Source of the DNA: Candidatus Mailhella excrementigallinarum | Lineage (GTDB): Bacteria > Desulfobacterota > Desulfovibrionia > Desulfovibrionales > Desulfovibrionaceae | DNA: 64,000 nt | Assembly: GCA_944324075.1 (NCBI GenBank) | Contig: CALUUZ010000002.1 | Location: forward strand, 62,001-126,000 | Reading direction: 5' to 3' | Shown: piece after piece, positions 1,500 to 57,775 of the stretch | Layout of the letters: every line of letters starts with the position of its first letter | How positions within the stretch are numbered: the stretch's first letter is position 1 | Program-made: the position numbers and the translations under genes | Notes under the pieces: model-generated | Database searches by the model: none | What the model was told of the DNA's origin: nothing | Seen by the model: only the letters and a program-made list of their open reading frames with translations

Positions 1500-2774
1500 A
1501 TGAGCGGCCTGTCGGAAAAGCTGGAAGATGCGCGCCGCAGCGTGCGTGACAATGTGCGCGGAGCGCTGGAAGACACATTTCGTGAATGGTGCGCGGCGGC
1601 GGATATCCGTATCGTCGTGGATGGGGAAGAGAGCGCGGAGCTTCGTCCCTGGGATGTCATGGTGCATGACAGGCGTCTCTTCGGCCGTGTGCTGTCTCAT
1701 GGCACGCTGGGCCTGGGGGAAGCCTACATGGACGGCTGGTGGGACTGCGGACAGATGGACGTGATGTTCTGCAAGGCGATCCGGGCAGGTGTGGAGCGTC
1801 GGATATCAGGCAGTTTTTCGGGCTGGCTGCATGAAGCGGCGTTTCGCTTTCTGAATCTTCAGACCCGTTCCCGTTCCTTCATGGTGGCAAGGCGTCATTA
1901 TGATGCGGAGCCCGCGCTGTTCAGAGCCATGCTCGACCCGTACATGCAGTATAGCTGCGGTTACTGGGAACAGGCGGGCACTCTTGAAGATGCCCAGCTT
2001 GCCAAGATGGAGATGATCTGCCGCAAGCTCAGGCTGAAGCCGGGCATGAGTGTACTGGATATCGGCTGCGGCTGGGGCGGTTTGTCACGGTATATGGCGG
2101 AACATTATCAGGTCAGCGTGACGGGCGTCACGATATCCGGGGAACAGCTTGACGCAGCGCGGGAGAAAGCGGACGGGCTGCCGGTGGAATATCTGCTGCT
2201 GGACTATAGGGATTTGCCCGGGGGCGCAAAATTCGGCGAGGATGACGGCGCGGGCGGCAGACGATGGGATCGCGCTGTTTCCGTGGGCATGTTCGAGCAT
2301 GTCGGGCGCAAAAATTACGGGATATTTCTGAAGACGGTCAGGCGCAGCCTCAAACCGGACGGACTCTTTCTGCTGCACTGCATCGGCAGCAACGGAGGAG
2401 GCTGCGGCGCGGATCCGTGGCTGACCCGTTACATCTTCCCCAATGGCGCACTGCCTTCCGCCTCCGCCCTGACCAGGGCCCTTGAAGGCGTCTTTGTGAT
2501 GGAGGACTGGCACAATTTCGGCGCGTACTACGACAGCACACTCATGGCCTGGCATGCCCGATTCCGCAGAGGCTGCGAAGAGGGGGCCTTTGCCTGCGAC
2601 GAACGTCTGCGCCGGATGTATGACTATTATCTGCTGAGCTGTGCCGGGGCTTTCCGCTCCCGCTGCATTCAGCTCTGGCAGCTGGCGCTCAGTCCCGAGG
2701 GCGTGCCGGGCGGTTATGACTGCCGCCGGGATTGCGCAGGGAGCCGTGAGCAGGTGGAGAGAAGACAAGAGTAG
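1500..2774 (+). CDS. cfa: Cyclopropane-fatty-acyl-phospholipid synthase
   Basis: A 424-residue SAM-dependent enzyme predicted to add a methylene bridge to cis-unsaturated acyl chains of membrane phospholipids. Visible family marks are MQYSCGYW at ~149-156, the SAM-binding loop VLDIGCGWGG at ~185-194 followed by a GVTIS strand, and MFEHVGRKNY further on. These are hallmark motifs of the CFA synthase/mycolic acid methyltransferase family. Length is slightly above the ~380 residues of the E. coli enzyme. The start at 1500 is chosen because GGGAGG sits 8 bases upstream; the open frame extends further 5' without another ribosome site. The last 86 bases overlap the end of the convergent glycosyltransferase gene. 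It is probably transcribed alone. Confidence 0.93.
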   Translation: MSGLSEKLEDARRSVRDNVRGALEDTFREWCAAADIRIVVDGEESAELRPWDVMVHDRRLFGRVLSHGTLGLGEAYMDGWWDCGQMDVMFCKAIRAGVERRISGSFSGWLHEAAFRFLNLQTRSRSFMVARRHYDAEPALFRAMLDPYMQYSCGYWEQAGTLEDAQLAKMEMICRKLRLKPGMSVLDIGCGWGGLSRYMAEHYQVSVTGVTISGEQLDAAREKADGLPVEYLLLDYRDLPGGAKFGEDDGAGGRRWDRAVSVGMFEHVGRKNYGIFLKTVRRSLKPDGLFLLHCIGSNGGGCGADPWLTRYIFPNGALPSASALTRALEGVFVMEDWHNFGAYYDSTLMAWHARFRRGCEEGAFACDERLRRMYDYYLLSCAGAFRSRCIQLWQLALSPEGVPGGYDCRRDCAGSREQVERRQE

Positions 2775-3933
2775 CTGTCCGCTCCCTTGCGGGCGCGTGG
2801 ATGGGCACCGAATCCTGTTTTTCATCCAGAATGGCGGCTTCCAGTTCCGGCAGCGTTTTGGCCGGATCGAAATGTTCCCGTGCGAATTCAAAGGCATTCC
2901 GGCCCATTTTTTCCAGTTCCATGCCCGAGCGTGACAGGACGCTCAGGGTGGCGGCAAGGTGGGCGGGATCGCCGGGGCGCACCAGCCAGCCGGTTTTCCC
3001 CGGCCTGATGAACACCTCTTCCGTGCCTGCGGCGATGACCGGGCGCCCCATGCTCATGGCCTCAATGATATCGCGTCCCCAGGGAGAACCTGCTGGGTCC
3101 GGACACACAATACAGTGTACCGGACGGACGGCTTCTTCCACATCGTCGGTCCAGTCATGCAGGAAGATGATGTCCCCCAGGCCGTTGCGATCGATTGTGC
3201 CCTGCATGCGGCGCTGAAGCGGAGAGGGATTGGCCGCGTTGCCTCCGCAGATATGCACGGCGGCATGCGCCCGGCGCAGGGCCGGGGCCACTGTGGCCGC
3301 CGCCCGGATCAGATCCATGAGTCCCCCGGATGCCGCAAGCTGGCCGAAATATCCGAAGCGGACGGGAGCGAGGGGCGGGAAGTCGAGAAAGCGCGGCGCG
3401 CGTTCGGCGCTGTTGAAAATGATGCGGCAGGGAATGCCCAGACGTGCGGGCAGTTCCGCTTCCCGCGAGCCGATGGCCACGGCCCGGGTGACATGCCTGC
3501 GGATAAACCGGGCGACACTGTCGAAACGGGGCGAACTTTCCTCCACCACTTCTCCGGCAATAAGCACTTTTGGGATATCCGGAGCGAGCGCCGCGAGACT
3601 GAGTGCGGGGTAACCGTTGAACAGGAGCAGATCAGCCTCTCCCGCCCATGCCCTGAATTCGGGGATGCGCGGACGCATGACCTCGCAGCGCGCGTCCTGT
3701 TCCCGTTCCGGGACGGCGACCCCCTTGTAGCTGATCGGAAGCCGGCCCCACTCAAACAGTCTGACGGGTACTCCCAGTGCGGCATATTCTTCCGCCATGG
3801 GGCGATCAGGGCGGGGCGGGAGCAGACTGACAACGGAAAGCTCATGCCGCGCGGCAAGGTGACGGACAAGAATGCGGAGACTGCGGGCGGAACCGCCCCG
3901 GTCGATGCTGTGCGTGGCAATGAGGATGCGCAT
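2689..3933 (-). CDS. GT4-like (group 1) glycosyltransferase
   Basis: 414 residues with the two-Rossmann GT-B layout. The N-terminus MRILIATHSIDRGGSA is the typical nucleotide-sugar-independent acceptor half with its Gly-rich loop, and the C-terminal half carries the retaining GT4 signature around PWGRDIIEAMSMGRPVIA (E-x7-E-like). This is followed by the usual GxTGWLVRPGD stretch. It probably transfers a sugar to a glycan at the cytoplasmic face; donor and acceptor are unknown. The start is the ATG at 3933, preceded by AAGGATTGG. The final ~28 codons run antisense into cfa, which is unusual but both frames are well supported. It is divergent from the following GT2 gene, so 3934-4155 should hold promoters for both. 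Confidence 0.85.
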   Translation of the reverse strand: MRILIATHSIDRGGSARSLRILVRHLAARHELSVVSLLPPRPDRPMAEEYAALGVPVRLFEWGRLPISYKGVAVPEREQDARCEVMRPRIPEFRAWAGEADLLLFNGYPALSLAALAPDIPKVLIAGEVVEESSPRFDSVARFIRRHVTRAVAIGSREAELPARLGIPCRIIFNSAERAPRFLDFPPLAPVRFGYFGQLAASGGLMDLIRAAATVAPALRRAHAAVHICGGNAANPSPLQRRMQGTIDRNGLGDIIFLHDWTDDVEEAVRPVHCIVCPDPAGSPWGRDIIEAMSMGRPVIAAGTEEVFIRPGKTGWLVRPGDPAHLAATLSVLSRSGMELEKMGRNAFEFAREHFDPAKTLPELEAAILDEKQDSVPIHAPARERTATLVFSPPAHGSLRNPGGSHNRPARPRD

Positions 3934-4155
3934 TTCCAATCCTTAAATTTAAAGTTGCCTTTTTGGGGTACAGTTTCCGGCGGATTTTCCGATTTTCAAA
4001 AAAACAACTGAATACAAGGCCCGTGAGGATGCTTTATCGGATCGTCCCGCCTGCCGCAAGCGGCTCCCTCAGGCATATGGCACAGACACGGACATGTGGA
4101 GTGTTCAGAACAGGAATCTCAAGTTTTCAAATAAGTTCTGAGGCGGTCTACGAGC

Positions 4156-5409
4156 ATGAGCAGCGCTGTTTCCGTTATAATCCCCGTGTTCAATAACTGG
4201 GAACTGACCCGGCAGTGCCTGGTCGGCCTGGCGGAAAACAGCCCGCCGGGGCTGGAAGTCGTGGTTGTGGACAACGGCTCCTCCGATGAGACGGCAGAGA
4301 ACCTTGAATCGTTCGGTCAGGGGCTTTTCAGCGGGCATTTCCGGCGTATCCGGTTCGAGGAAAACCGGAATTTTGCCCCGGCATGCAATGCCGGAGCCAG
4401 ATCGGCCCGGACGGATTTTCTTTTTTTCCTCAATAACGATACGCTCATTCTGCCGGGATGGCTGCCGCCCCTGCTGGCGGAGTTTTCCCTTTCCTCCCGG
4501 CTCGGCGCGGCTGGCCCGCTGCTGATGTACCCGGATAAGACCGTGCAGCATCTGGGCATCGCGTTCTGGCCGGAAGGCATTGCCGGACATATTTATCAAA
4601 GCCTGCCGGTGTCGCATAAGCTGGCATCCCGCAAGCGTTTTTTCAGGGCGCTGACCGGCGCTGCGCTTCTGGTTCCCCGCAGTCTGTTTTTGCGCGAGGG
4701 CGGTTTTGACGAAGGATATGTCAACGGCTTTGAAGATGTTGATTTCGGACTGAGGCTTGCACGGCATGGTTATCGGCTGTGCAATGCGCCGGAAAGCCGC
4801 ATCATGCACTTGGAAAGCAGAACTCCCCACCGTTACACATATCACAGCGCCAACAGCAGGCGTCTGCATGCCGCATGGAATCTGTCTGCATGCGCGGATC
4901 TTCCCGATATTGTTGCCGAAGATGGATATTCCCTGCGCGTCATGCCGGAACTTCGACTGAAAGTCGCGCTGCCGTCGGAGATGTCAGGCGAGTATCTCCG
5001 ACGTCTGCGTCCATTCGATGCGGCGACCTGCTTTTCTTTTCTGGAAGAGGAACCTCTGTGGCTTGAAGGCTATGCCTTGTTGGGAGAGTATCTTGAACGG
5101 AACGGAGAGTGGGAAATGGCCCTCCAGCTTTATCAGAATGCCGTGAAATACAGCCTGTGCTGTTCTTTTGAGGACTATGAGCGCCTCAAGCGGGTGATGA
5201 CGGCGCTGGGAAGGGATGTTGCCCCGCTTGCCGCTGCTGTTGAGCCTTCGCTTCGACAGATTTGTGATGAACGGAAGTATGAGGAGAAGCGGCTGATGAT
5301 CATGCGTCATCTGTCCGAAGGGTCCTCCGCCGGCAGAGGCATGCTGCCGCTCTACAGAGAGGCGGGCAAACGCGCACGGAAGCTGCGCGAAAGTCTCATG
5401 CGGACATGA
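4156..5409 (+). CDS. GT2 family glycosyltransferase
   Basis: 417 residues. The N-terminal ~250 residues are a GT-A domain of family 2: SVIIPVFNNWELTRQCL, VVVDNGSSDET, then a DxD-equivalent in FLNNDTLILPGW and the FEDVDFGLRL acid motif expected for the catalytic base. This resembles rhamnosyltransferase-type enzymes that extend O-antigen-like glycans with NDP-sugars at the cytoplasmic membrane. The C-terminal ~160 residues are helical with a TPR-like look (EWEMALQLYQNAVKYS) and no recognised function. The gene stands at the head of the sugar-biosynthesis run but is separated from the next gene by ~200 bases that include a fragment of element I. Acceptor and donor cannot be told from the sequence. 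Confidence 0.86.
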   Translation: MSSAVSVIIPVFNNWELTRQCLVGLAENSPPGLEVVVVDNGSSDETAENLESFGQGLFSGHFRRIRFEENRNFAPACNAGARSARTDFLFFLNNDTLILPGWLPPLLAEFSLSSRLGAAGPLLMYPDKTVQHLGIAFWPEGIAGHIYQSLPVSHKLASRKRFFRALTGAALLVPRSLFLREGGFDEGYVNGFEDVDFGLRLARHGYRLCNAPESRIMHLESRTPHRYTYHSANSRRLHAAWNLSACADLPDIVAEDGYSLRVMPELRLKVALPSEMSGEYLRRLRPFDAATCFSFLEEEPLWLEGYALLGEYLERNGEWEMALQLYQNAVKYSLCCSFEDYERLKRVMTALGRDVAPLAAAVEPSLRQICDERKYEEKRLMIMRHLSEGSSAGRGMLPLYREAGKRARKLRESLMRT

Positions 5410-7408: not shown

Positions 7409-7999
7409 ATGCCGTGCGGTGCGCGGGGCTGGGCCGGCTATGCCGGGGACATCGCCTCTCTGCTGCTGCGGGTGCGGGCAACCGACTCCGGGGGTAAGGA
7501 ACTTTCCGTTGATGCCGCCGTGCGGCGCTGGGCGGACATGGCGGAAGAACTGCGCGGAAAGAAGGGAGAGATTTCCTTTGTGGGCAACGGGGCCTCTGCC
7601 GCCATGTCCAGCCACTGCGCGGCCGATATTCTGAAAAACGGCCGCGTGCGTACCCGTGTCTATACGGACCCTGCGCTTCTTACCGCTACGGGCAATGATG
7701 TTTCCTATGAAGCCTCGTTTGCTGTTCCTCTCGCGCTCAGCATGCGTCATGGCGACATGCTGGTGGCCGTCAGCAGTTCCGGGGCGTCGCCGAATATCAT
7801 CGCTGCCGCGAAGGCAGGGCGGCCTCTGGGGAGCATCGTCACCCTGTCCGCCTTCAGTGTGGAAAATCCCCTGCGGATGCTGGGCGACATAAACTTTTAT
7901 GTTCCGACTCCGGTGTACGGTTTGGCTGAAACCTGCCACGCGGCCCTGCTGCATTACTGGACGGATTTTGTTGTGGCAGGAGCTCGGGAGCAGTCATGA
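7409..7999 (+). CDS. SIS-domain phosphosugar isomerase, GmhA-like
   Basis: About 196 residues, close to the ~192 of phosphoheptose isomerase GmhA. The SIS core is clear: FVGNGASAAMSSHCAADIL in the phosphate-binding loop and VAVSSSGASPNII for the second sugar-phosphate loop. GmhA converts sedoheptulose 7-phosphate to D-glycero-manno-heptose 7-phosphate. The adjoining HldE-like kinase/cytidylyltransferase, with which this gene shares an ATGA overlap, supports a heptose or related ketose phosphate as substrate. The start is not certain: ATG 7409 lies just after the SDR stop, ATG 7379 would overlap it, and neither has a clear ribosome site. Confidence 0.82.
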   Translation: MPCGARGWAGYAGDIASLLLRVRATDSGGKELSVDAAVRRWADMAEELRGKKGEISFVGNGASAAMSSHCAADILKNGRVRTRVYTDPALLTATGNDVSYEASFAVPLALSMRHGDMLVAVSSSGASPNIIAAAKAGRPLGSIVTLSAFSVENPLRMLGDINFYVPTPVYGLAETCHAALLHYWTDFVVAGAREQS

Positions 8000-9453
8000 C
8001 ATCGCTGCAGAGTCTGAGAAATTTTCGCGCGCACAATGCGGGCAGACGCATCAGTTTTGTTTCCGGCAACTTCAAGGTGATACATCCGGGGCATATCCGG
8101 CTGCTGCGCTTTGCCCGTGAAATGGCCGACAGGCTTGTGGTGGGAGTTGTTCCCGGCAATCCCTGGAATGCGATGGTGTCGGAGCGGGACAGGCTGGAAA
8201 ATGTCAATGCGCTGAATATGGTCGACCTTGTATGCCTGCTTGATACTTCTCTGGCCGAGGCCCTTCGCGCGCTCCGGCCGGATTTCGTCGTCAAGGGCAA
8301 GGAATACGAAGACGGGGACAACCCGGAAGCCGCCATTCTTGATACCTACAACGGCAAACTCGTGTTCTCGTCCGGCTCAAGCGTCCTTTCCGAAGCGGAC
8401 GTGATCGACGGCACTTCAGCCCACAGCCTTTCGTTTTCACTGCCCGGCGCATATATGCAGCGGCACGGCATTGTTCCGGAAGATTTGCGCCGCATTCTTG
8501 AAGCCATGCGCGACGTCAGAATTACCGTCGTGGGCGACAGCATCGTCGATGAATATATTCACTGCGATCCGCTGGGGATGTCGCAGGAAGACCCCACAAT
8601 CGTCGTCAGGCAGTCAACCACGCGCCGTTACCTCGGCGGGGCGGGCATTGTGGCCGCCCATGCCGCCAGTCTGGGGGCGCAGGTTCGTTTTGCGACTGTC
8701 TGCGGGTATGACGATACGGCGGATTTTGTACGGGAAAAACTGCGGGAATACGGCGTTCATGCCCATATTTTTGAAGACGATACCCGCCCCACAACACTTA
8801 AGCAGCGTTTTCGGTGCCGGGGCAAAACCCTGCTGCGCGTGAGCCATCTGCAGCAGCATGACGTGGACAGGCGTCTTGCCAGACGCATGCTCAAGGTTCT
8901 GCTTCCCTGCATTGACGATTCCGATCTGCTGATTTTTTCTGATTTCAACTACGGGTGTCTTTCGCCCATGGTGGTGGACTCCCTGACCAGCCATGCGCAG
9001 CAGCGGAAGGCCACCATTGTGGCCGACAGTCAGTCTTCTTCCCAGATTGGCGATGTGGGGCGTTTTTGCGGGGCAACGCTGCTTACGCCCACCGAGCGGG
9101 AAGCCCGCCTTGCTCTCAAGGATTTCGCTTCGGGTCTTGTGGTTCTGGCGGATAATCTGCTGCACAAGGCCGGAGCGGGCAATGTGATAATGACCCTGGG
9201 CGAGGCCGGTATTCTCATCCAGCCTGGCGGAAACGAGGAGACGGATCAGCTGCCCGCCCTGAATCCCATGGCGAAGGATGTGGCCGGAGCGGGCGACTCT
9301 CTGCTTGTTGTCGCGGCGCTGGCACTGGCTGCCGGGGGGAACATCTGGCAGGCCGCCTGCCTCGGATCGCTGGGAGCGGCCATACAGGTGAGCCGTGAAG
9401 GCAATATTCCGCTGAGCGCCGACGATATGCTGCGCGGCCTTCTCAACAGGTAA
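7996..9453 (+). CDS. HldE-like bifunctional protein, domains in swapped order
   Basis: 485 residues. Residues ~15-150 form a nucleotidyltransferase domain with the HxGH motif (FKVIHPGH, 26-33) of cytidylyl/adenylyltransferases. Residues ~170-485 form a PfkB/ribokinase-type sugar kinase with VVGDSIVDEYI near its start, the substrate loop GGAGIVAAHAASLG and the catalytic base Asp434 in VAGAGDSLL. E. coli HldE, which makes ADP-heptose, has the kinase first and the nucleotidyltransferase second; here the order is reversed. It likely phosphorylates a sugar phosphate at C1 and transfers a nucleotide. It overlaps the isomerase by 4 bases. A heptose role is inferred from HldE/GmhA pairing, not shown. 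Confidence 0.85.
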   Translation: MTSLQSLRNFRAHNAGRRISFVSGNFKVIHPGHIRLLRFAREMADRLVVGVVPGNPWNAMVSERDRLENVNALNMVDLVCLLDTSLAEALRALRPDFVVKGKEYEDGDNPEAAILDTYNGKLVFSSGSSVLSEADVIDGTSAHSLSFSLPGAYMQRHGIVPEDLRRILEAMRDVRITVVGDSIVDEYIHCDPLGMSQEDPTIVVRQSTTRRYLGGAGIVAAHAASLGAQVRFATVCGYDDTADFVREKLREYGVHAHIFEDDTRPTTLKQRFRCRGKTLLRVSHLQQHDVDRRLARRMLKVLLPCIDDSDLLIFSDFNYGCLSPMVVDSLTSHAQQRKATIVADSQSSSQIGDVGRFCGATLLTPTEREARLALKDFASGLVVLADNLLHKAGAGNVIMTLGEAGILIQPGGNEETDQLPALNPMAKDVAGAGDSLLVVAALALAAGGNIWQAACLGSLGAAIQVSREGNIPLSADDMLRGLLNR

Positions 9454-12926: not shown

Positions 12927-13979
12927 ATGCAGGGGCGGCAGGATCCCGCAGAGGCGGGGCGCATTCTTCTGGCAAAGGCGGGGTTGGGCGGCCGGTCTCC
13001 GCGTGTAACGCGCTTGTCGCATGGAAAGAACAATCTGACATATCGGCTGGATGCCGAGGGAACAACCTGCCTGCTGAAGCAGTATTTCCGGCATCCCCGC
13101 GACATGCGCGACCGCCAGGGGGCGGAACTGGCGTTTCTGTCTTTTTGTCAAAAAAATAACATAGCTTCAGTCCCGATTCCGCTGGCATATGACAGAATCG
13201 GGCGCTGGTCGCTTTTTTCATGGCTGGACGGCCGTCCAGCCGCTGCGGAGGATATCACCCGGCGCAATGTGGCGCTGGTGGGAGCCTTTTTGCGGGATCT
13301 GGCGGAGGCGAAAAGCCGGTCGGAAGATTTGTGCCTTCAGCCCGCTGCGGAGGCATGTTTTTCCCTCCTGGATCATATAACGCTTGCAAAAAGGCGTGTG
13401 GAACGACTTTTGCATGGAGTTTCACGGCAGCGGACGTGCCCTCTGGCGCTGAAAGCGGAAGAGGTGGCGCGGCGCGAACTCCTGCCCGGTCTGGAGAGGG
13501 AAGAGGAACGTCTTGCCCGCCGGTACGGGCAGGCCGGTCTGCGCGCCCGGTTCACATGGGAGGAGATAGTTCCTTCCCCGTCCGACATAGGATTTCACAA
13601 TATCCTGGTCATGACGCAGGGGCTGGGGTTTGTGGATTTTGAGTATGCCGGCATTGACGATGCGGCCAAAATGCTGTGCGATTTTCTCTGCCAGCCGTCC
13701 CTGCCCGTTCCTGCTGAGTTTTTGAAGGAAATGCGGCCGCTGTTCGGGGGGGATGCCCGGGCCGGGAGGGAGATATATGCGCGGGCGGAGGATGTGCTTG
13801 TTCTGCACCGCATCAAGTGGTGCTGCATTCTGCTCAATGTGTTTGATACGGCAGATGCGGAGAGAAGACTGTTTTCCGGCTCCGCCGCTGAAGTGCGGGC
13901 GCTGCGCGAGATGCAGCTGAAAAAGTGCGTCAACTACATATGCAGGTATCTGAAAGGGACTGAACATGGCATACATTGA
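12927..13979 (+). CDS. APH/choline-kinase-like phosphotransferase
   Basis: About 350 residues of the aminoglycoside-phosphotransferase fold. The nucleotide loop is around LSHGKNNLTYRL, the ATP-anchoring Lys in CLLKQYF, the catalytic loop is SPSDIGFHNIL (Brenner-type D-x4-N) and the Mg-binding Asp is in FVDFEYAGIDD. Members phosphorylate hydroxyls of small molecules or sugars; homologues occur in polysaccharide clusters as sugar kinases. It could supply the phosphorylated intermediate used by this operon. The start is ambiguous between ATG 12921 and 12927; the latter has AGGA at a workable distance. The 3' end overlaps the methyltransferase gene by 14 bases. Confidence 0.75.
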   Translation: MQGRQDPAEAGRILLAKAGLGGRSPRVTRLSHGKNNLTYRLDAEGTTCLLKQYFRHPRDMRDRQGAELAFLSFCQKNNIASVPIPLAYDRIGRWSLFSWLDGRPAAAEDITRRNVALVGAFLRDLAEAKSRSEDLCLQPAAEACFSLLDHITLAKRRVERLLHGVSRQRTCPLALKAEEVARRELLPGLEREEERLARRYGQAGLRARFTWEEIVPSPSDIGFHNILVMTQGLGFVDFEYAGIDDAAKMLCDFLCQPSLPVPAEFLKEMRPLFGGDARAGREIYARAEDVLVLHRIKWCCILLNVFDTADAERRLFSGSAAEVRALREMQLKKCVNYICRYLKGTEHGIH

Positions 13980-14637
13980 CTTTCTTTCGCCTTTGCACAA
14001 GGCGACGAAGCGCGATTATCTGGCGAGGGTCAATGACCCGGAATATCCCAAGGCAAGGGCGGCGGAACTGGCAAAGCAGTGGGGGTATGACTACTGGGAC
14101 GGCGACAGGCGCATCAATTACGGCGGTTACCGGTTCATGCCCGGCCGCTGGGCGCCCGTGGCGCAAAAGATGATACGTCACTACGGGCTGAAGCCCGGCG
14201 ACAGGATACTCGATATCGGATGCGGCAAGGGATTTCAGCTGGCGGAATTCAAGTCCGCCATGCCCGGACTTGAACTGTACGGTATTGATATTTCCGAATA
14301 TGCCGTTGAACATGCCCATGAAAGCGTTGCCGACAGGCTGCGCGTGGGCAGCGCGACCACTCTGCCGTGGCCTGACGGCTATTTTGATTACGTTTTTTCC
14401 ATCACGACACTGCATAACCTGCATAACTATGATCTGGATAAGGCTCTGCGGGAAATGGAGCGGGTAGGCAGGAAGAACAAGTATCTCTGTGTGGAATCAT
14501 ACAGAAATGAAGAGGAAAAGGCGAATCTTCTTTACTGGCAGGTGACATGCGAAGCCTTCTGCACGCCGGAGGAATGGGAGTGGTGGTTTAAGACAACAGG
14601 CTATACCGGAGATTATTCATTTATTTATTTTGAGTGA
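13966..14637 (+). CDS. Class I SAM-dependent methyltransferase
   Basis: 223 residues with motif I ILDIGCGKGF at 81-90, the acidic strand end in YGIDIS, and motif VFSITTLHNLHN. The N-terminal 60 residues (FLSPLHKATKRDYLARV) are a family-specific cap resembling methyltransferases of polysaccharide clusters. It probably methylates a sugar or sugar nucleotide in the cytosol. It is the last gene of the 5.6-14.6 kb operon: the next gene starts 268 bases later behind a degenerate repeat and has lower GC. Confidence 0.83.
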   Translation: MAYIDFLSPLHKATKRDYLARVNDPEYPKARAAELAKQWGYDYWDGDRRINYGGYRFMPGRWAPVAQKMIRHYGLKPGDRILDIGCGKGFQLAEFKSAMPGLELYGIDISEYAVEHAHESVADRLRVGSATTLPWPDGYFDYVFSITTLHNLHNYDLDKALREMERVGRKNKYLCVESYRNEEEKANLLYWQVTCEAFCTPEEWEWWFKTTGYTGDYSFIYFE

Positions 14638-14751: not shown

Positions 14752-14880
14752 CCAGAGCATTTTTAAATGAAAATGCCTGCGGAGCCGTGTATGTCAAGAC
14801 GCTGTGGCGTAAGGCCCATGAATTCGGGCATAAGGCCTGCTGTCCGGAAAATGAAATCCGTCTGGCAGATATGTTATCTC
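14752..14880 (+). repeat. Degenerate element I copy B
   Basis: Modules in the element I order can be traced with many changes: GAGCATTTTTAAATGAAAATGC (the AGCATTT...AAATGCT hairpin), GCGGAGCCG, TGTGGCGTAAGGC, TCCGGAAAATG and TCTGGCAGATATGTT. The last two align with CCGGAACACAG and GGCAGGTATGTT of copy E. It lies immediately upstream of the radical SAM gene that starts at 14906. The 268-base gap contains nothing else recognisable. Confidence 0.45.
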
Positions 14881-14905
14881 AACGTGATCTAACTATGGAG
14901 AAAAT

Positions 14906-15814
14906 ATGTCTCTCTCTCTCTCTCTCTCCTTCCCCAAGTTTATACAGATTGAAACCGTCAGGGAATGTAATGCACGATGCCGTTTCTGCGCGCATGGAAC
15001 GGGGCAGTTGCTTGAAAAGGGTTTCATGAGCGAAGAGCTTTTTGACAAGATTGCATCCGAAGTTATTGAACACAAGGACGAAATTTCCCGCGTCCAGTTG
15101 AATGAACTTGGGGAGCCTCTTCTGGATAAGAAAATAGCCGAAAGAATCAGACGTTTTAAAGACGGCGGTATTCGTGAAGTCTTGCTTATCACAAACGGCG
15201 CATTGCTTGATGAAAGGAAAGCCGTGGAAATTCTCGAGGCAGGTGTCGATATTTTGCGCTGTTCCATTACAACAATAAATCCTGAAAAGTATCCTCTTCT
15301 GCGGCGTGGCCTGAATCTTGAAACCGTTCTTGCCAATATCAACCGTTATATTGAGCTTCGAGATGCCATAAACAAGGATTCCAGAATATATATTTCTACG
15401 GAAAAGGATCCTCTGCTGACAGATGAAGATATCGAGCAGTGGGAGGCATACTGGAAGAACAGACTGAGCCATAATGATGTATTGAAAATTTCAGAGCTTT
15501 TTTCCTTCGGGTTGCAGCTCTCGTCTGTGGACAAGACGCGTGAGCTCGGCATAGAGCTTTCAACGCCCTGCATACCGATGATGCAGACCATATATATTCC
15601 ATATAACGGAAAGGTTCCCCTTTGCTGCATTGACTTCGGCTGGCAAATCCCTGTGGGAGACGCCAATGTGTCATCATTACAGGAAATATGGCAAAATGAC
15701 ATTTTTTCCGCATACCGCGAGATGCACAGAAATGGGCGGCGCAAGGAAATTCCGCTTTGTCTTCACTGCGACGGATGGGAGCCGAAACAGAATCTGGCTG
15801 GAGAAAAATCATAA
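14906..15814 (+). CDS. Radical SAM / SPASM enzyme with start-proximal (TC)10
   Basis: 302 residues. The radical SAM motif is CNARCRFC (Cys21, 25, 28), followed by LGEPLLD; the C-terminal part has TPCIPM, PLCCIDFGW and PLCLHCDGW cysteines, typical of SPASM clusters in sugar- or peptide-modifying enzymes. ATG 14906 is preceded by GGAG at a spacing of 5. Codons 2-8 are a (TC)10 tract read as SLSLSLS, so gain or loss of one unit would put the gene out of frame. The assembled state is ON. Codon use is more AT-rich than the operon upstream. Substrate unknown; the island context suggests a glycan precursor. Confidence 0.85.
   Translation: MSLSLSLSFPKFIQIETVRECNARCRFCAHGTGQLLEKGFMSEELFDKIASEVIEHKDEISRVQLNELGEPLLDKKIAERIRRFKDGGIREVLLITNGALLDERKAVEILEAGVDILRCSITTINPEKYPLLRRGLNLETVLANINRYIELRDAINKDSRIYISTEKDPLLTDEDIEQWEAYWKNRLSHNDVLKISELFSFGLQLSSVDKTRELGIELSTPCIPMMQTIYIPYNGKVPLCCIDFGWQIPVGDANVSSLQEIWQNDIFSAYREMHRNGRRKEIPLCLHCDGWEPKQNLAGEKS
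14909..14928 (+). repeat. (TC)10 simple-sequence repeat inside a coding start
   Basis: Ten perfect TC units follow the ATG at 14906-14908. The unit length of 2 means that slipped-strand changes of one unit shift the frame. An upstream ATG at 14895 in another frame would come into frame after loss of one unit or gain of two, but it lacks a ribosome site. Confidence 0.95.
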
Positions 15815-15866: not shown

Positions 15867-17048
15867 ATGAATTGTCCTTTTTGTGCCGGTCAGGGTACGG
15901 TATATGCCTCGGAAGATCGGTTCGCGGTGACCAGCGATTCAAAGCTGATTGCTGATGAAAGCACGGTGAGCTACTGCCCGCGCTGCGGCTGTTTTTACAG
16001 GGAAAGGCGCGCCGCGCAGCCGGAAAGGATCGAAAAGGTATACAGCGAGTATGATCTGTATGCCCCTTCCGGCAGGGGCGAGGCGCGTGTGGCATTTGAC
16101 GTTTCTGCCGACGGCATCCCCAAGTCGGTGCGGGAACTGGACTTTCTTTCCCGTTTCGCGGATGTGCCGCAGAAAGGCCGCATTCTTGACTACGGTTGCA
16201 ATCATGGTCTTTTTCTGCGGGCCTTTCTTGAGCGCTATCCCGAATGGGAAGGGACAGGAGCGGATATAGAGGAACGGTATCGTCAATCTTTTGCCGGACA
16301 CCTGCCTGCCTCGGCGCGTTACTGCTGTCTGCCTCATGAGGAGCCAGGCTCCGGTTTTGATATCATCTGCTGTTCCCACGTGCTGGAGCATCTGCCGGAG
16401 CCTGCGGCTGCGCTGCGCGATATGGCTTCGCGTCTTGCGCCCGGCGGCATATTGTTCATTCAGGCGGTGAATCCGCTGCTGAATCCGTTCTTCCACGTCA
16501 TTTTTGAACAGCATCATCATTTTACTCCGGCGGGGCTGCGCCATGTGCTGGAACTCTGCGGCCTGCACTTGCGCTGCATCAATACGGACTGGATAGGAAA
16601 GGAAATCGCCGTGATAGCCGCGCGCGGCCCGGCGGCCGGCGATGTCTGCTCCGGGCTGGATATGGAGGCGACCGCGCTGCAGGTCGGAAGACATGCGGAG
16701 TCGGTGCGGGCCGTCATGGCCGCGCTGGCGCGCATTGCCGGGAGCGGAACGCCCGTGGGCATTTTTGGCGCTTCCATTATGGGAACATGGATGGCAAGCC
16801 GGCTGGAAGGGCTGGTGCAATGCTTTGTGGATGAGAACACAGCCCTTCAGGGCGGCAGGCATCTTGGCCTGCCTGTCGTTCCGCCGGATAAGGCCCCGGC
16901 GGGGTTGCCGCTGCTGTGCGCCATGCCCGAACACATGGCCCGTAAACTTTTGCGCCGTCTGGGGGAGGTCTGCCCCGGGGTACTGATTGCGCCGCCGTTC
17001 AGTTCCACCCCTCTCGGCGGTTCAGAGGGAACCTCGCATGAAGACTGA
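15867..17048 (+). CDS. C-methyltransferase-like protein with N-terminal Zn motif
   Basis: 393 residues in three parts. Residues ~1-45 hold CPFC (Cys3, Cys6) and CPRCGC, a zinc-ribbon-like pair. Residues ~110-230 are a class I methyltransferase with ILDYGCNHGLF and CCSHVLEHLPEP. The remaining ~120 residues (VGIFGASIMGTWMA then FVDENTALQGGRHLGLPV) resemble the C-terminal Rossmann-like domain of sugar C-methyltransferases such as TylC3/NovU types. This architecture matches NDP-sugar C-methyltransferases acting on keto-sugars, although other substrates are possible. The 3' end overlaps the aminotransferase start by 11 bases. Confidence 0.8.
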   Translation: MNCPFCAGQGTVYASEDRFAVTSDSKLIADESTVSYCPRCGCFYRERRAAQPERIEKVYSEYDLYAPSGRGEARVAFDVSADGIPKSVRELDFLSRFADVPQKGRILDYGCNHGLFLRAFLERYPEWEGTGADIEERYRQSFAGHLPASARYCCLPHEEPGSGFDIICCSHVLEHLPEPAAALRDMASRLAPGGILFIQAVNPLLNPFFHVIFEQHHHFTPAGLRHVLELCGLHLRCINTDWIGKEIAVIAARGPAAGDVCSGLDMEATALQVGRHAESVRAVMAALARIAGSGTPVGIFGASIMGTWMASRLEGLVQCFVDENTALQGGRHLGLPVVPPDKAPAGLPLLCAMPEHMARKLLRRLGEVCPGVLIAPPFSSTPLGGSEGTSHED

Positions 17049-18141
17049 AATGCCCTGGTGGCGTGTTGATTTTGGAGAGGCGGCTGCCCGCGCGGCTTTT
17101 GATGCCGTGGAGGGGCGGTTCATGACGCTTGGCCCCATAACGCGGCAGTTCGAGGAACGCATGGCGCACCTGCTCGGCGTGCCGCACGTCATTGCCACAT
17201 CCAGCGGGACGGCAGCCCTGACGCTGGCCCTGCTTGAGGCGGGCATCGGCCCCGGAGATGAGGTCATCGTGCCGGACAGAACGTGGATAGCCACGGCTCA
17301 TGCCGTTTTGCTTCTGGGGGCGACGCCGGTTTTCGCCGATGTGGAGGCGGATCGTCCCGTTCTTGATGTGGAGGCGTTCAAGGCGGCGGCCGGGCCGCGC
17401 ACCAGAGCCGTGCTGCCGGTACATCTCAACGGGCGGGCGGTTGATATGCCAGCCCTGCGCCGTGAGGCGGAGCAGAGAGGCATTCTCGTCATTGAGGATG
17501 CGTGCCAGGCGCTTTTTTCACGCTCTCAGGAAGGCGGTTACCTCGGGTGTCACAGCCGCTGCGGCTGTTTTTCCCTTTCCATCGGCAAGGCGATCAGTTC
17601 AGGACAGGGGGGCTTCGTGACGACCCATGACGGAGAAATTGCCCGTCGGCTTGTCATGGCGCGGACTCACGGCACTTCCGACATCACCATGGCGCACTGG
17701 GAAATGCCGGGCGGCAACTTCCGCATGTGGGATCTGCCCGCCGCGATTGCCCTGACCCAGCTTGATCTGCTGGAAAAGCGCACGGCGGATCTGCACCGTG
17801 TGTATCAGCGTTACCAGCAGGCGCTGCGCCGGTTTGCCTTTCTTGAACTGCTGCCGGTTCGCACGGAGCTGGGCGAACTTCCGCTTTACGTGGAATGTAT
17901 GAGCAGAGAGCGCGCGAGGATCGTTGAACATCTTGCCGCGGCGGGCATTCAGGCCAGACCGTATTATGCCAATCTGGACACGGCGCCCCAGTTTTCGCGG
18001 CGCGCGGGCGTGAGCTATGCCCGTTCGCAGAAATATGCGGACGAGTGTTTTGTGCTTCCCTGCGGGCCGGATCGCGGCGATGACGAAATCGACAGAGTGA
18101 TCGAGGTGCTGTCAACGTTTCCGGGCAGTGATGAAGCATGA
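17038..18141 (+). CDS. DegT/DnrJ/EryC1-type PLP sugar aminotransferase
   Basis: 367 residues. The PLP-binding lysine is Lys184 in SLSIGKAISSGQGG, the pyridine-N Asp is Asp154 in VIEDACQ, and the substrate/PLP loop TSSGTAAL is at 54-61. These enzymes transfer an amino group from Glu/Gln onto keto groups of NDP-sugars. The position of the C-methyltransferase-like gene just upstream (11-base overlap) and the WbuC-like gene just downstream (4-base overlap) suggests an amino-deoxy sugar branch. The ATG at 17038 is chosen because it fits the usual N-terminus. A second DegT gene is at 34479-35606 and the two are not close copies. Confidence 0.9.
   Translation: MKTEMPWWRVDFGEAAARAAFDAVEGRFMTLGPITRQFEERMAHLLGVPHVIATSSGTAALTLALLEAGIGPGDEVIVPDRTWIATAHAVLLLGATPVFADVEADRPVLDVEAFKAAAGPRTRAVLPVHLNGRAVDMPALRREAEQRGILVIEDACQALFSRSQEGGYLGCHSRCGCFSLSIGKAISSGQGGFVTTHDGEIARRLVMARTHGTSDITMAHWEMPGGNFRMWDLPAAIALTQLDLLEKRTADLHRVYQRYQQALRRFAFLELLPVRTELGELPLYVECMSRERARIVEHLAAAGIQARPYYANLDTAPQFSRRAGVSYARSQKYADECFVLPCGPDRGDDEIDRVIEVLSTFPGSDEA

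Positions 18142-21520: not shown

Positions 21521-21521
<1 letters not shown>
20136..21521 (+). CDS. NoeA-like SAM-dependent methyltransferase
   Basis: 461 residues. The N-terminal half (VFTDGTTVLRTVN, FISYPYEWSFSQLKQAA, ILKDATAYNVQF, FIDLLSFEKH) is a kinase-like or NoeA-specific domain found in this family, and the C-terminal half is a methyltransferase with LAVDLGANTGVFSR and ALALCHHLVMG. NoeA-like proteins were named from rhizobial nodulation loci and often lie next to sulfatase-superfamily genes. It ends with a TGA overlapping the ATG of the following transferase, so the two are translationally coupled and probably act on the same envelope glycan. The methylated group is unknown. Confidence 0.8.
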
Positions 21522-24271
<2,750 letters not shown>

Positions 24272-24581
24272 TATGTGTTTTCTGCTGCGAGAATATGCTG
24301 GAGAGAGGTATCGTCAATGTGATATGGTGCTTTTGCGATGCAGCGGGAATGGAGAGGCGCATGCGCTTCGGCGGGCAGGGATTATGCGTGTTTTCACATT
24401 GTGGCGGAAAGAAAATGCTTTTGCGCCTGTTCAGATCTGCTTCATATCGGAATTGCAAGGGGCATGAAAGTGTTTTTTTGTGATGAATGCGCAAGATGCC
24501 GGACGGTGACGGAAATACGCTTTTTCATTCGGTTTGTCTGACTCCTTCGGAAAGAGACAGTAACTCTGCTTGAGGGTTATC
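24272..24581 (+). other. Gap between AlkP-superfamily paralogues 1 and 2
   Basis: This 310-base stretch has lower GC than its surroundings. No gene with recognisable features is seen. One frame stays open from inside the CA tract to 24483 (tail beginning RGPAYRDDLAEWI), which would become the C-terminus of paralogue 1 after a suitable frameshift. TGAGGG just before 24582 serves as ribosome site for the next gene. No terminator hairpin is evident. Confidence 0.5.
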
Positions 24582-27299
24582 ATGCGGTTTTTGTGGCAGT
24601 TTGCATCATTTTCAGGTATTATGCTGTTTCTTTCCTGCGTTGCGCCTACTATTGCATTTCTGTCGGTAAATGTTGAGCATTTTACCAACAGGCAGATTCG
24701 TAATGCCGTCATGGCAGTCATGGCTTTTGGGCTGATTGCATGGTTTGTTGTCGCATTGATTTCAGAACCAATAAACTCTCTATTGCCTTTTTACTGGTTT
24801 GGTCTTCAAGTATCAGATATTTTATCATGTTTGCTGTGCGGTATTTTTCTGACTGTTTTTGGAGAACGAACTATATTTGAAAATATTCATAAATTATATT
24901 TACGAATTATTGCAGTAAGTGCTATTTTTACTGTAGTCATATTGATTTCAATAGTTCTGTCGCATGCTGCTGTTGTAGCAATACTGCTGATTTACCTGCT
25001 CTTTTCTCTGTATGACTTGAAAAAGAAATACAAAACAGTACGTTATCCTCTTGTCTCTGACACACACACACATGAAAGCGGCCGGGACGAGCGGAGCGAC
25101 ATCCCCAGGTTTGCGCGCCGTCCCAACGTGTGGCTGCTGTTTCTGGAAGCCATTCACTCTTTTGAGGCTGCAAAGGAGATTTACGGCATCGACGCCTCTG
25201 AAGCGGAAAGTTTTCTGCGGCGGCAGGGCTTCAGAATATATGCGCCTTTTTACTCGACGACGTCATGGACTGTCGGCAGTGCCTGCGCGCTGCTCACGCG
25301 GTATCCCTTTTTCGATCAGTTTTTGCCGGAGTATCCCATAGTGCTGCGCACATTCAGGGACAACGGTTACAGAATGCAGGTCTTTGACTCGGGCGCGTAT
25401 GTTTTCGGGCGCTGGGAATGGCTTATGGACTATGCGTCGTTTGCCCTGCGCGGTGCAGGCAGGAAGCTGTTCCGCAGCTTCCTGCCCCTGTTCGCCCAGT
25501 CGTCGCTGCTGCGCAAGGCTATTGGCATATCTGATCCCTATACTTCCGACGTGCATACGGAAGCCGCCTACACGGATATCCTGAACAAGGTGCGCCTGCA
25601 TGGTTTCGTACAGGATTCCTCGGCCCGCCCTGTGTTCAATATTGTCCGCTTTGGTGCAAAACATACTGAAAACTCAAGTACATGGGAAGAGAATAAAAAG
25701 TCGTGGCCCGGAGAATACCGGGCCTGTTATGGCCGCACCATGGAGCAGCTTCAGGAAATGGCTTCGTTGATAGTGGAGCGTGATCCGGAAGCGCTTGTCG
25801 CTGTTGTAGCCGATCATGGCGGCAAGGAAATGGGTTTTCAATGGATTGCCGCATCTTCCGATTTAAATGCAGCGTTGAAAGAAAACGGCATGACGATGCC
25901 GGCGATCTGTCGTGATTATTTTGACGTTCTCTGTGCAATACGCTGGGGATCTGCTTCCATTGAATATGATATTAAAACGCAGATAAATCTTTTTGGCTAT
26001 ATTTTTTCGCATCTTTCTGATGATAATGTGCTGCCGAAGAATCTTCAGGAAGAAGTATCGGTGTGCACTGATCATATTCGTGGGCCAAACTGGATTTTTG
26101 CCGAAAACGCACATCCCCTGAACAGGGCTGTTCCCTATTCTCTCAGAAAACAGCAATCTGTTTTGCAGCGAGCCGTTGCAATAGATCCATGGAACCTGAA
26201 GATAAAAAATATTTTCAGAACAGCCGATGTTGTTCCCTGCCCGAGGGCTGATTCCCTTGACAGTCTGCGTGCGGCGTTATGCGGCGGCGAAAACGAAGAG
26301 GCTGCGCTTGCAATGAACAGGCTGAGGCGTCAGGTTCAGACCGCTCCTTCCGCGGAGGTCTTGCTGGACTGGGGGTGGCGGTGCGCCGCGATGGGACGGC
26401 TGGCAGACGCCGAAAAAAGCTGTCTGGAATCGCTGAAAACGGCTCCGGAAAATACGCGGGGGCTTTGGCTGCTCTGCCTGCTGCAGGCAGAGCGCAATGC
26501 CGGAGCTGAGGCGGCCGCGACCGCGCTGCGCCTGTGCATGGCTCTTGCGGACAGGGGTGGCTCTCCAGACGGGGAAAAAGAGGGGCCTGATGTCGTCGCG
26601 GGCTTCCGCATACTGGTTTTGTCGCTGATCCATGCCCGCATGTGGGAGGATGCCGGCTCCGTTCTTGCCGAACACGGTATTCCGCACGGCAGCTCTCTGG
26701 GCGTATGGGGCGTTTTCTGCCGCGCCCTCTGCGAAGAACGTCTCGGCAATCCGCGCGGAGCGCTTGAAGTTCTGCTGGCCGCGCAGAGTGACTATGCTGC
26801 TGACCCGGCATGTCTGGCCCGTATCCAGGAACGGATCGGGCTGCTCGCTCTTTCCTGCAGGTGGAAAGAGCCGGAGTTCCGTCCCGTCCGGCAGCAGGTT
26901 TCGCTGGTCATGCGTGAAATGATGGCATGTGTGGAATCTTCGGGCCGTTTCGACGCCGATTTTTATCACAAGACATATCTGGAGCCGCAGGGCGTCAGCA
27001 TGCGTCCTTTGACCCACTTTTTCTATCATGGGGTTTTTGAAGGGCTGAATCCGTCTCCCGGATTCAACACATTTTTTTATCTGGCACGGTATGGCGATGT
27101 CTTCCGTCAGGGCGAAAATCCGTTTGTTCATTATCTTGCGCACGGCGCCGGGGAAGGGCGGCAGGGGTCGCTCCATCTTCAGGAAGCCGCCCCGGAGAGA
27201 CGGGGATACGCCGTCCGCGCGTTCCCGCGGGATCCGGCGGGAACATGCGGGTGCGGAAAAACGCATGACTCCGGTTCAGCCGCAAATATTCAGGACTGA
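24582..27299 (+). CDS. Membrane AlkP-superfamily (LtaS-like) transferase, paralogue 2
   Basis: 905 residues with the same plan as paralogue 1: four or five membrane segments in ~1-155, a sulfatase-type domain at ~185-500 (FLEAIHSFEAA, TTSWTVGSACAL, FGAKHTEN, VADHGGKEMG), TPR-like helices at ~590-760, and a C-terminal FDADFY, THFFYHG, NPFVHYLAHGAGEGR module. The first ~160 codons are AT-rich and the rest GC-rich, and the switch falls at a (CA)6 tract at 25061. TGAGGG precedes the ATG by 5 bases. The likely role is transfer of a phospho-substituent to an envelope glycan, inferred from fold only. Confidence 0.82.
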   Translation: MRFLWQFASFSGIMLFLSCVAPTIAFLSVNVEHFTNRQIRNAVMAVMAFGLIAWFVVALISEPINSLLPFYWFGLQVSDILSCLLCGIFLTVFGERTIFENIHKLYLRIIAVSAIFTVVILISIVLSHAAVVAILLIYLLFSLYDLKKKYKTVRYPLVSDTHTHESGRDERSDIPRFARRPNVWLLFLEAIHSFEAAKEIYGIDASEAESFLRRQGFRIYAPFYSTTSWTVGSACALLTRYPFFDQFLPEYPIVLRTFRDNGYRMQVFDSGAYVFGRWEWLMDYASFALRGAGRKLFRSFLPLFAQSSLLRKAIGISDPYTSDVHTEAAYTDILNKVRLHGFVQDSSARPVFNIVRFGAKHTENSSTWEENKKSWPGEYRACYGRTMEQLQEMASLIVERDPEALVAVVADHGGKEMGFQWIAASSDLNAALKENGMTMPAICRDYFDVLCAIRWGSASIEYDIKTQINLFGYIFSHLSDDNVLPKNLQEEVSVCTDHIRGPNWIFAENAHPLNRAVPYSLRKQQSVLQRAVAIDPWNLKIKNIFRTADVVPCPRADSLDSLRAALCGGENEEAALAMNRLRRQVQTAPSAEVLLDWGWRCAAMGRLADAEKSCLESLKTAPENTRGLWLLCLLQAERNAGAEAAATALRLCMALADRGGSPDGEKEGPDVVAGFRILVLSLIHARMWEDAGSVLAEHGIPHGSSLGVWGVFCRALCEERLGNPRGALEVLLAAQSDYAADPACLARIQERIGLLALSCRWKEPEFRPVRQQVSLVMREMMACVESSGRFDADFYHKTYLEPQGVSMRPLTHFFYHGVFEGLNPSPGFNTFFYLARYGDVFRQGENPFVHYLAHGAGEGRQGSLHLQEAAPERRGYAVRAFPRDPAGTCGCGKTHDSGSAANIQD
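25061..25072 (+). repeat. (CA)6 tract in paralogue 2
   Basis: Six CA units, read as part of SDTHTHESG, in the linker between the membrane domain and the catalytic domain. It marks the point where base composition changes from AT-rich to GC-rich. Length is marginal for frequent slippage. Confidence 0.8.
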
Positions 27300-34478: not shown

Positions 34479-35606
34479 TCAGCGGGGTCCTCCGGCCAGA
34501 ACAGCGCGCACCGCATCGCAGACGGCGGTGATGTCGGTATCGGAGATATGGGCATGCATGGGCAGGGAAAGTATGCGGCCGCACAGATCTTCCGTACAGG
34601 GCAGGCCCGCGGGATCGGCGCTTGTCCGGCCCGCGTAGGCAGGCTGAAGGTGAACGGGAACGGGATAGTGCACGGCGGAGGCAATTCCCCGTTCGGCCAG
34701 CGCCTCGGCAAGAGCGTCACGACACCCCCGCGGCGTTCTGACGACAAACAGATGCCAGACCGGGGAACAGTCCGGCGCAATGACGGGAAGTTCCAGCCCG
34801 GGGATATCCGCCAGCCCGGCAAGATAACGTCCGGCCGCCCGCCGCCGGTGGGCATTGTCCGCGTCAAGGCGGGCAAGGCGCACGCGCAGCAGCGCGGCCT
34901 GAAGCTCGTCAAGGCGGGAGTTGAAGCCCGGTTCCTCGCTGATATAGCGCCGCCTCCAGCCGTACTGGCGCAATTCGCGCACCCGTGATTCCGCTTCTCT
35001 GTCCGGAACAAGGACGGCTCCGCCGTCGCCGAACGCGCCGAGATTCTTGGTCGGATAGAAACTGAAGGCCGCCGCATCGCCGAATGTTCCCGCCTTTTTC
35101 CCATGCAGAAGCGAGCCGTGGGCCTGGGCGCAGTCTTCCACCACCTTGCAGCCGTGCGCGCGGGCAAGACGCAGAATGGAATCCATATCCGCGCACTGGC
35201 CGTAAAGATGGACAGGCAGAACCGCTCTGATGTCATGATTTTCGAGGATGCGTTCAAGGCTGGCCGGACTCATGGTAAAGCGATCCGGCTCAACATCCGC
35301 CAGAACGGGAACGGCTCCCATGCGTTCAATGGCCGCCACTGTCGCCACGGCGGTATGGGAAACCGTGGCGACGGCATCTCCCGGCCCCACGCCGACCGCG
35401 CGAAGCGCCAGCTCGACGGCGTCCGTTCCGCTGGCGACTCCCGCGCAGTACGCCGCGCCGCACCATTCCGCAAATTCGCGTTCAAAGGCTTCCGCTTCCC
35501 GGCCGAGGATATACCAGCCGCTTTCCATGACGCGCCGGAATGCCGCGTCCAGATCGCCGCGCTGGGCGTCATACAGTATTTTCAGATCGCAGAAAGGCAC
35601 GTTCAT
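34479..35606 (-). CDS. DegT/DnrJ-type PLP sugar aminotransferase
   Basis: 375 residues with the full family signature: PLP lysine Lys187 in FYPTKNLGAFGDGG, Asp158 in VVEDCAQAHG, SGTDAVELALRA near the N-terminus, and the C-terminal HYPVPVHLQPAY substrate region. That last motif and the FYPTKNL form are typical of enzymes aminating dTDP- or UDP-keto-sugars at C3 or C4 (FdtB/VioA/DesV relatives). The ATG at 35606 has AAAGGA upstream. It heads the three-gene set bounded by inverted repeats and lies downstream of the SDR gene, which could make its keto-sugar substrate. Confidence 0.9.
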   Translation of the reverse strand: MNVPFCDLKILYDAQRGDLDAAFRRVMESGWYILGREAEAFEREFAEWCGAAYCAGVASGTDAVELALRAVGVGPGDAVATVSHTAVATVAAIERMGAVPVLADVEPDRFTMSPASLERILENHDIRAVLPVHLYGQCADMDSILRLARAHGCKVVEDCAQAHGSLLHGKKAGTFGDAAAFSFYPTKNLGAFGDGGAVLVPDREAESRVRELRQYGWRRRYISEEPGFNSRLDELQAALLRVRLARLDADNAHRRRAAGRYLAGLADIPGLELPVIAPDCSPVWHLFVVRTPRGCRDALAEALAERGIASAVHYPVPVHLQPAYAGRTSADPAGLPCTEDLCGRILSLPMHAHISDTDITAVCDAVRAVLAGGPR

Positions 35607-35644
35607 CAAAAATTCCTTTGTGGTTTGAAACCTCCCCTGCAGGG

Positions 35645-35735
35645 GAAAAGAGAAGCTGACAAAACGGCGGAGCCGATGAAATTCTCTTCCGTAACCAATC
35701 CCTTCAGGGAGGGGCAGTCCGCACGCCCCCTGTCC
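35645..35735 (-). repeat. Inverted repeat, right arm (element III)
   Basis: This is the mate of 30213-30309, on the opposite strand. It lies between the SDR stop and the DegT start and reads toward DegT. Most mismatches to the other arm are transitions. A local hairpin (AGGGGC ... GCCCCCT) is contained in both arms. The remaining bases of this 162-base gap hold no gene. Confidence 0.75.
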
Positions 35736-35768
35736 GTCTCTTGCGGAGTCATCCGGCGGATGGGGCGA

Positions 35769-48713: not shown

Positions 48714-48715
48714 AG

Positions 48716-48942
48716 CATTTCGCTCATGAAATGAGCTGCGGAACCGGGCAGGGGGGAGACTCATCTCCTCTCTCCTTATCCGCAAAAAGCGCGCTGACGG
48801 CCAGAGCGCCGCGCCGCCCCTCTTCTCCGGCACCGCCGCAATTGACTTGCGGCGGCAAGCTCCGGTGGAGGCGTGAAATCTGCGGGCCGGAACACAGAAG
48901 CCGGCCGGCAGATATTTTCAAATGCAAAACGCTCCAAGACCG
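48716..48942 (+). repeat. Element I, copy D
   Basis: The longest copy: the AGCATTTCGCTCATGAAATG hairpin, a CCTTATCCGCAAAAAGCGC block, GCTGACGGCCAGAGC, the hairpin CCGCCGCAA / TTGCGGCGG (48833-48855), GGAGGCGTGAAATCTGCGGG, CCGGAACACAG and CGGCAGATATTTTCA. It occupies the first half of the 426-base gap after flgL; two terminator-like hairpins fill the rest, with no gene. Confidence 0.8.
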
Positions 48943-55279: not shown

Positions 55280-55280
55280 T

Positions 55281-57669: not shown

Positions 57670-57775
57670 GGGGAAAACTGCTTTGCGGGGTCATCGGCGC
57701 TGCAAGCCTCTCTTTGCTTGCGCGGTTCGGCAGGCTGTGTTAATTAAGCCCTTTTGACTGCCCGATGACATGAAT

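Follow-up and report, generated by a model that had tools for sequence, protein, structure and literature searches.

A (TC)10 tract directly behind the start codon of a radical SAM gene, a probable translational switch in a Candidatus Mailhella genome

The question raised by this locus is whether a dinucleotide repeat that follows directly on a start codon turns its gene on and off. The locus lies in a stretch of 64,000 nucleotides of Candidatus Mailhella excrementigallinarum DNA, referred to here as the window. An earlier, sequence-only reading of the window had proposed a probable phase-variable radical SAM gene, with the repeat right behind its ATG and a GGAG upstream, and we found all three elements where that reading had placed them. 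The tract is a perfect (TC)10 on the forward strand (unit identity, 100%). The pattern (TC)8 had three overlapping matches in the window, every one of them inside this tract, and none in 100 dinucleotide-preserving shuffles of the window. The tract is longer than expected by chance and, like the tracts of contingency loci, consists of short perfect units in a coding region close to the start.

Table 1. Coordinates of the tract gene, its possible start codons, its neighbors, and the second repeat tract, as positions in the window
Feature	Position	Strand	Basis or remark
Glycosyltransferase	2689-3939	-	Upstream of tract gene
Family 2 glycosyltransferase gene, intact, without tract	4156..5409	+	A (TC)13 divides its paralogue L049
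PfkB kinase plus cytidylyltransferase-like protein	7996..9453	+	Domain search
Methyltransferase gene upstream of tract gene	13966..14637	+	Domain search
Alternative GTG	14787..14789	+	Same frame as ATG 14895; GGAG two bases upstream, closer than usual
Alternative ATG	14871..14873	+	Same frame as ATG 14895; no Shine-Dalgarno-like match
Alternative ATG	14895..14897	+	In enzyme frame at 6, 9, or 12 units; no Shine-Dalgarno-like match
GGAG, Shine-Dalgarno-like	14897..14900	+	5 nt upstream of ATG 14906; direct reading
ATG start	14906..14908	+	Directly before tract; enzyme in frame at 7, 10, or 13 units
(TC)10 tract, proposed switch	14909..14928	+	Within codons 2-8, coding S-L repeats
Radical SAM/SPASM protein, 302 aa	14906..15814	+	ORF translation and domain matches
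CxxxCxxC cluster motif CNARCRFC	14966..14989	+	Codons 21-28; translation, position by arithmetic
SPASM domain	15569..15772	+	Residues 222-289
Methyltransferase gene downstream of tract gene	15867..17048	+	Domain search
DegT/DnrJ/EryC1/StrS aminotransferase	17032..18141	+	E = 3.4e-83
C-rich tract, (C)25 then (CA)16.5	24152..24227	+	Near 3' end of ORF 21521-24271

The 302-residue product of the tract gene matched both domains of the radical SAM/SPASM family, Radical_SAM (E = 3.9e-16, residues 16 to 151) and SPASM (3.5e-11), and carries the CxxxCxxC motif of that family; in the translation the motif begins at codon 21, the place given for it beforehand. No NCBIfam model scored above its cut-off among the best 25 of 32 rows. 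A simple scan for promoters and terminators between positions 14500 and 15900 gave no match.

The repeat unit is not a multiple of three, so changes in unit number shift between a full-length and a truncated frame. Tracts of 7, 10, or 13 units place ATG 14906 in the enzyme frame. Addition of one unit to the assembled tract (11 units) leaves 41 residues translated from ATG 14906 and an enzyme body with no in-frame start; for 8, 11, and 14 units, no upstream start codon was found in the enzyme frame in a search from position 14700. Removal of one unit (9 units) leaves 14 residues from ATG 14906, and at 6, 9, and 12 units the enzyme body is in frame with ATG 14895, ATG 14871, and GTG 14787. One-unit changes are therefore not equivalent, because 9 or 12 units bring poor upstream starts (Table 1) into the enzyme frame. 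It had been claimed that any one-unit change abolishes the enzyme. This agrees with the frame map for the gain of a unit, after which no in-frame start is left, but is too strong for the loss of one, after which weak translation from an upstream start may persist. If it works, the switch would have three states: ON, OFF, and perhaps LOW.

To which of these states does the assembled length belong? L094, the closest homologue that we found (39% identity), has no repeat in its leader, and its ATG, preceded by a Shine-Dalgarno sequence, lies eight codons before the Phe that aligns with the residue following the tract in the window gene. Its leader has exactly the length of the window gene's leader at 10 units. 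Since a homologue reaches the same eight-residue leader without a repeat, 10 units is very likely the ON length, as the sequence-only reading had assumed. Matches to the enzyme at 1e-25 or better were present in 49 of 288 genomes of the family, the source genome counted, and the best outside the source genome was the 39% match. There was no close orthologue in the 18 genus mates, where the best match had 32% identity over half of the protein. A scan of genome contigs with the enzyme gave one short match, of 47% over residues 103 to 132, in an Acidobacteriaceae metagenome-assembled genome (MAG).

A leader of Ser-Leu repeats might also be kept for its protein sequence, for example as a membrane or export leader, with the DNA repeat incidental to it. 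In two TRAP binding proteins, tracts of this kind encode the hydrophobic stretch of an apparent signal peptide, which would fit this explanation. However, the leader of the window gene comprises just eight residues ahead of the radical SAM core, homologues of the enzyme carry unrelated leaders, and at other loci it is the purine strand that is coding, reading as runs of Arg-Glu (e.g., L067). We consider selection for the protein sequence very unlikely.

The setting of the gene bears on what the enzyme may do. Besides the genes listed in Table 1, a nucleotidyl transferase, a GDP-mannose dehydratase/epimerase, a SIS-domain protein, a further radical SAM/SPASM protein, and split transketolase genes lie upstream of it, and beside or downstream of it, along with the methyltransferases and the DegT aminotransferase, is a zinc alcohol dehydrogenase. 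The product of the PfkB kinase gene is one that we take to be HldE-like. Judged by its gene content, this is a surface-glycan or nucleotide-sugar cluster, and the 302-residue enzyme presumably acts on a glycan.

The window tract is one of a set. Among the matches listed for the source genome we counted 12 loci with at least 13 GA/CT tracts between them, the window tract included, which is a lower bound; the pattern (TC)9 had 154 overlapping matches in the genome of 3.71 Mb. The GA/CT tracts fetched besides that of the window have 9.5 to 30 units, and the window (TC)10 is the second shortest, a point against the switch. Anchored patterns gave four matches to a poly-C of 11 and one to (CA)8, and because these are so few the repeat excess in this genome is of the GA/CT type. 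The genes at the tracts encode the radical SAM protein, a glycosyltransferase (L049), a TRAP binding protein, three sigma-54 activators, a LysR regulator, and, with a match at its cut-off, an FkbM-type methyltransferase. A multi-locus phasome calls for ten or more repeat-tract genes in a genome; part of the set lies by surface, transport, and regulation genes, but several tracts are intergenic or in unclear settings.

Some of these genes are out of frame as assembled. L049 (contig C28) is a paralogue of the glycosyltransferase gene at 4156-5409 in the window, which reads TTTTCCCTTTCCTCC at the place where L049 has a (TC)13 that splits it into two frames. The two halves match the intact product at residues 2 to 110 (79%) and 114 to 411 (67%), neither half holds a stop, and their dN/dS values are 0.085 and 0.181. 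Because dS exceeds 1 and these values average over the time since duplication, L049 is best described as a conserved gene that is presently out of frame, for a duration that the values do not date; a recent permanent frameshift is possible. In a sigma-54 activator gene (L040), the AAA+ part runs into an (AG)18.5, and the sequence behind it, which reads as a Fis-type helix-turn-helix, sits in another frame. The TRAP binding protein gene (L044) has a (TC)13 in its leader, and in a related gene of another genome (G001; 79% identical as DNA) the pyrimidine run is interrupted and six bases shorter, a difference that preserves the frame; from this comparison, the L044 tract is not common to the two species.

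Frames broken at repeats could also be produced by the assembly or the sequencing. Assembly may be difficult at long GA tracts: one contig, that of L047, stops 59 bases past the tracts of this locus, and between two other loci (L050 and L062) a similarity of 89% ends at the tract, behind which no match was seen. The window tract, however, has 20 bases, which is shorter than the usual sequencing read, and lies inside a contig of 422 kb, and long tracts also occur in two single-contig genomes (G060 and G016). An artefact is extremely improbable as the origin of the window tract. As a separate observation, three loci (L056, L062, and L050) show similarity on just one side of a GA tract, by recombination at the tracts or by chimeric assembly; because these two cannot be told apart, we did not use L050 and L062 as examples of OFF genes.

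Of the explanations that do without selected switching, the broadest is that the tracts are neutral microsatellites. A mutational tendency to GA/CT expansion would then have produced them, the leader and perhaps the gene would be dispensable, and any switching would be unselected. We examined where tracts lie in 83 GA tracts from the window and 71 loci of 15 genomes, which were hand-picked from the matches listed and are not all tracts; three GA tracts less than 100 bases from a locus end were dropped (two in L047 and one in L063). Tracts were rarer inside intact frames (13/83, against 2116/4797 random positions) and commoner where no long frame lies (23/83, against 466/4797). Many tracts may therefore be neutral, and purging alone would give such a distribution. 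Moreover, at two sites the tractless relative contains a related pyrimidine-rich sequence from which an expansion could start.

Other features of the same tracts argue against neutrality. Tracts were in excess at or ahead of the beginning of long frames, with a long frame after but not before them (22/83, compared with 775/4797 random positions). We asked for a Shine-Dalgarno sequence and ATG no more than 24 nt before the tract, for a downstream frame of 150 codons or more, and for no upstream frame of more than 60; 8 of the 83 GA tracts had this anatomy, as did 82 of 8003 positions drawn at random from the same loci. Since the window tract was the finding itself, we also counted without it (7/82), and with the FkbM pair described below counted once as well, the figure was 6/81 (P = 2.4e-4). 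Upstream-frame limits of 40, 60, and 80 codons gave 6, 8, and 9 of the 83 GA tracts, as opposed to 58/7988, 82/8003, and 142/7973 random positions. A looser form of this test separated the two more poorly (12/83 and 240/4001), and we replaced it with the one barring a long upstream frame because internal ATGs count in it. Against a switch, the remaining 75 of the 83 GA tracts were without the start-codon anatomy, and so were all 18 CA tracts used (two others were dropped). The conservation of both halves of L049 and the classes of genes at the tracts, which are the usual ones for contingency loci, also speak against the neutral explanation, and we regard it as unlikely for the window tract.

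We thus come back to a translational contingency locus, at which slipped-strand mispairing turns the gene ON and OFF by frame, as the likely reading of the (TC)10. The frame arithmetic, the leader of L094, the genome-wide set of GA/CT tracts, and the conserved genes that are out of frame all agree with the phase variability that had been proposed. In this model, which rests on sequence comparison, slipped-strand mispairing during replication would add or remove TC units directly behind ATG 14906 and so shift the radical SAM/SPASM frame. At 10 units, and also at 7 or 13, translation from the GGAG and ATG 14906 would yield the complete enzyme (ON). Lengths of 11 or 8 units would leave it without an in-frame start (OFF), and at 9 or 12 units the poor upstream starts alone would be in frame, for low expression or none. 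Frequent changes in the length of this tract, and expression that follows the frame of the gene, are predicted by the model. As a result, the modification that the enzyme makes to a surface glycan or its precursor would vary among the cells of a single clone.

Relatives of the source organism have comparable genes. One genome (G017) has two FkbM genes with an identical leader of 40 nt, of which the one with 18 units yields 21 residues (OFF) and the one with 19 units yields 383 (ON). The TRAP binding protein genes of the source genome and of G001 have a tract anatomy like that of the window gene. The same anatomy is seen in a gene of the sulfatase family in G060, a single-contig genome; as assembled, this gene is OFF. 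In two type ISP restriction-modification genes, the GA tract is internal: in one (L070, genome G007; tract 3051-3093), an (AG)21.5 splits the gene into two frames, a nuclease/helicase part and a helicase-C/coupler/methylase part, and in another (L063; tract 3043-3060, 9 units), the helicase and methylase parts are in different frames as assembled. The single pair of near-identical loci at hand for a comparison of lengths (L067 and L073), with segments 97 to 98% identical beside larger insertions and deletions, has a tract of 17.5 units in both genomes, which speaks against variation in length. For L066, the tract site was aligned elsewhere in the genus through the repeat alone. In G060, the paralogous chemotaxis receptor genes L085, L086, L087, and L090 (three identified by Pfam and L090 by DNA similarity) have GA tracts of 18.5 to 27.5 units some 70 to 190 bases upstream of the first start codon; these are possibly promoter switches.

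Across the family, the tracts are unevenly distributed. Of the 288 genomes, 43 contained the anchored pattern (TC)8. Three genera account for 33 of these (7/19 in g1, 23/79 in g18, and 3/15 in g21), and ten other genera contribute one genome each. In seven large genera (g12, g23, g24, g25, g33, g37, and g39), which were grouped after the counts had been seen, it was found in 2 of 107 genomes, both among the ten single ones. Anchored (CA)8 was present in 26 of the 288 genomes, with 11/15 in g21, 4/7 in g43, and 0/107 in the seven large genera. CA/TG tracts were seen in more genomes than GA/CT tracts in g21 and g43, and the reverse in g1 and g18. All of these counts are lower bounds because an anchored pattern needs one phase of the repeat, and a reversed pattern is no real control for a repeat, being itself a repeat.

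Loss of MutS was considered as a cause of tract instability and rejected. MutS was found in 279 of the 288 genomes and in all 205 that are 90% complete or better with contamination of 5% or less. The source genome had three MutS matches, two of which are MutS1 pieces at contig ends with 76 bases in common and no stop within the match. Because MutS is present, in the source genome as two contig-end pieces, its loss gives no reason for instability. The mutS pieces are at the starts of L116 and L117 (contigs C3 and C36), the gene being cut by a contig gap, and at the C3 end some 30 bases have no match to the other piece.

Two further kinds of repeat in the window were recorded. The C-rich tract at 24152-24227 is the sole anchored (CA)8 match in the source genome. 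The neighboring ORF 24570-27299 is a paralogue of the ORF that contains it (31% over 910 columns), with a match that stops just before the tract; near 25061 this neighbor includes a short run of CA. Dispersed repeats of about 160 to 370 bases, 74 to 92% alike, are common to several contigs of the source genome; they occur in L040, L045, and L053 and in the window at 35602-35784, 48711-48936, 55090-55282, and 57432-57678.

How does this locus compare with known systems? Switching of surface-structure genes by repeats at many loci is well known in Haemophilus influenzae and Neisseria, where the units are chiefly tetranucleotides or homopolymers; those of the source genome are chiefly GA/CT. Variable-number repeat typing exists for Lawsonia. 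In the open-access literature, mostly its titles and abstracts, we found no report of repeat switching in Desulfovibrio, Bilophila, or Lawsonia, in keeping with the earlier remark that this type is not known from Desulfovibrionaceae-like bacteria. The kind of switch is an ordinary one; it is for this family and this type of gene that we found no description. A survey of long repeats in 378 genomes, cited in Table 3 of PMC11868660, may include members of the family, and the accessible text of PMC2651432 describes the contingency repeats of Haemophilus as tetranucleotides.

The nearest known case is oipA of Helicobacter pylori, described in the accessible part of PMC10564699 as phase variable by slipped-strand mispairing at a (CT)n in the 5' coding region. 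It shares with the window gene the CT tract in that region and the frame-based on/off control proposed here, but it encodes an outer membrane protein with the tract in the signal peptide, whereas the window gene encodes a radical SAM enzyme of another lineage with the tract directly behind the ATG. Switching of oipA is established; that of the window locus is predicted from its sequence. The M.MmyCI gene of Mycoplasma mycoides, a type III methyltransferase gene with an (AG)12 that leads to a stop, according to the part of PMC3498834 available to us, has an AG dinucleotide tract in its coding region as the window gene has, but is a restriction-modification gene; among genes of that class in the family, the two type ISP genes described above carry GA tracts. 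An excess of (AG)n dinucleotides is reported in the accessible text of PMC4516964 for Mycoplasma, Rhizobiales, and Rickettsiales. Those lineages resemble the source genome in having a lineage-specific AG excess and differ from it, as far as that text goes, in being blood parasites, in much of the analysis concerning the very short (AG)3, and in the absence of frame switching.

It is an even call whether several genera of the family run multi-locus phasomes, each mainly of one dinucleotide type, that give individual cells random states of surface, uptake, defense, and regulation. GA/CT would be the type of the source genus and part of g18, CA/TG that of g21 and g43, and the seven large genera would have next to none. 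The genes switched would be those of glycan enzymes, TRAP binding proteins, type ISP enzymes, and the DNA-binding end of a sigma-54 activator. If this is true, a repeat-based phasome that is uneven across genera would allow the gain of switching to be compared between close relatives, and the surface, transport, and restriction phenotypes of an isolate may represent a single sample of a mixed population.
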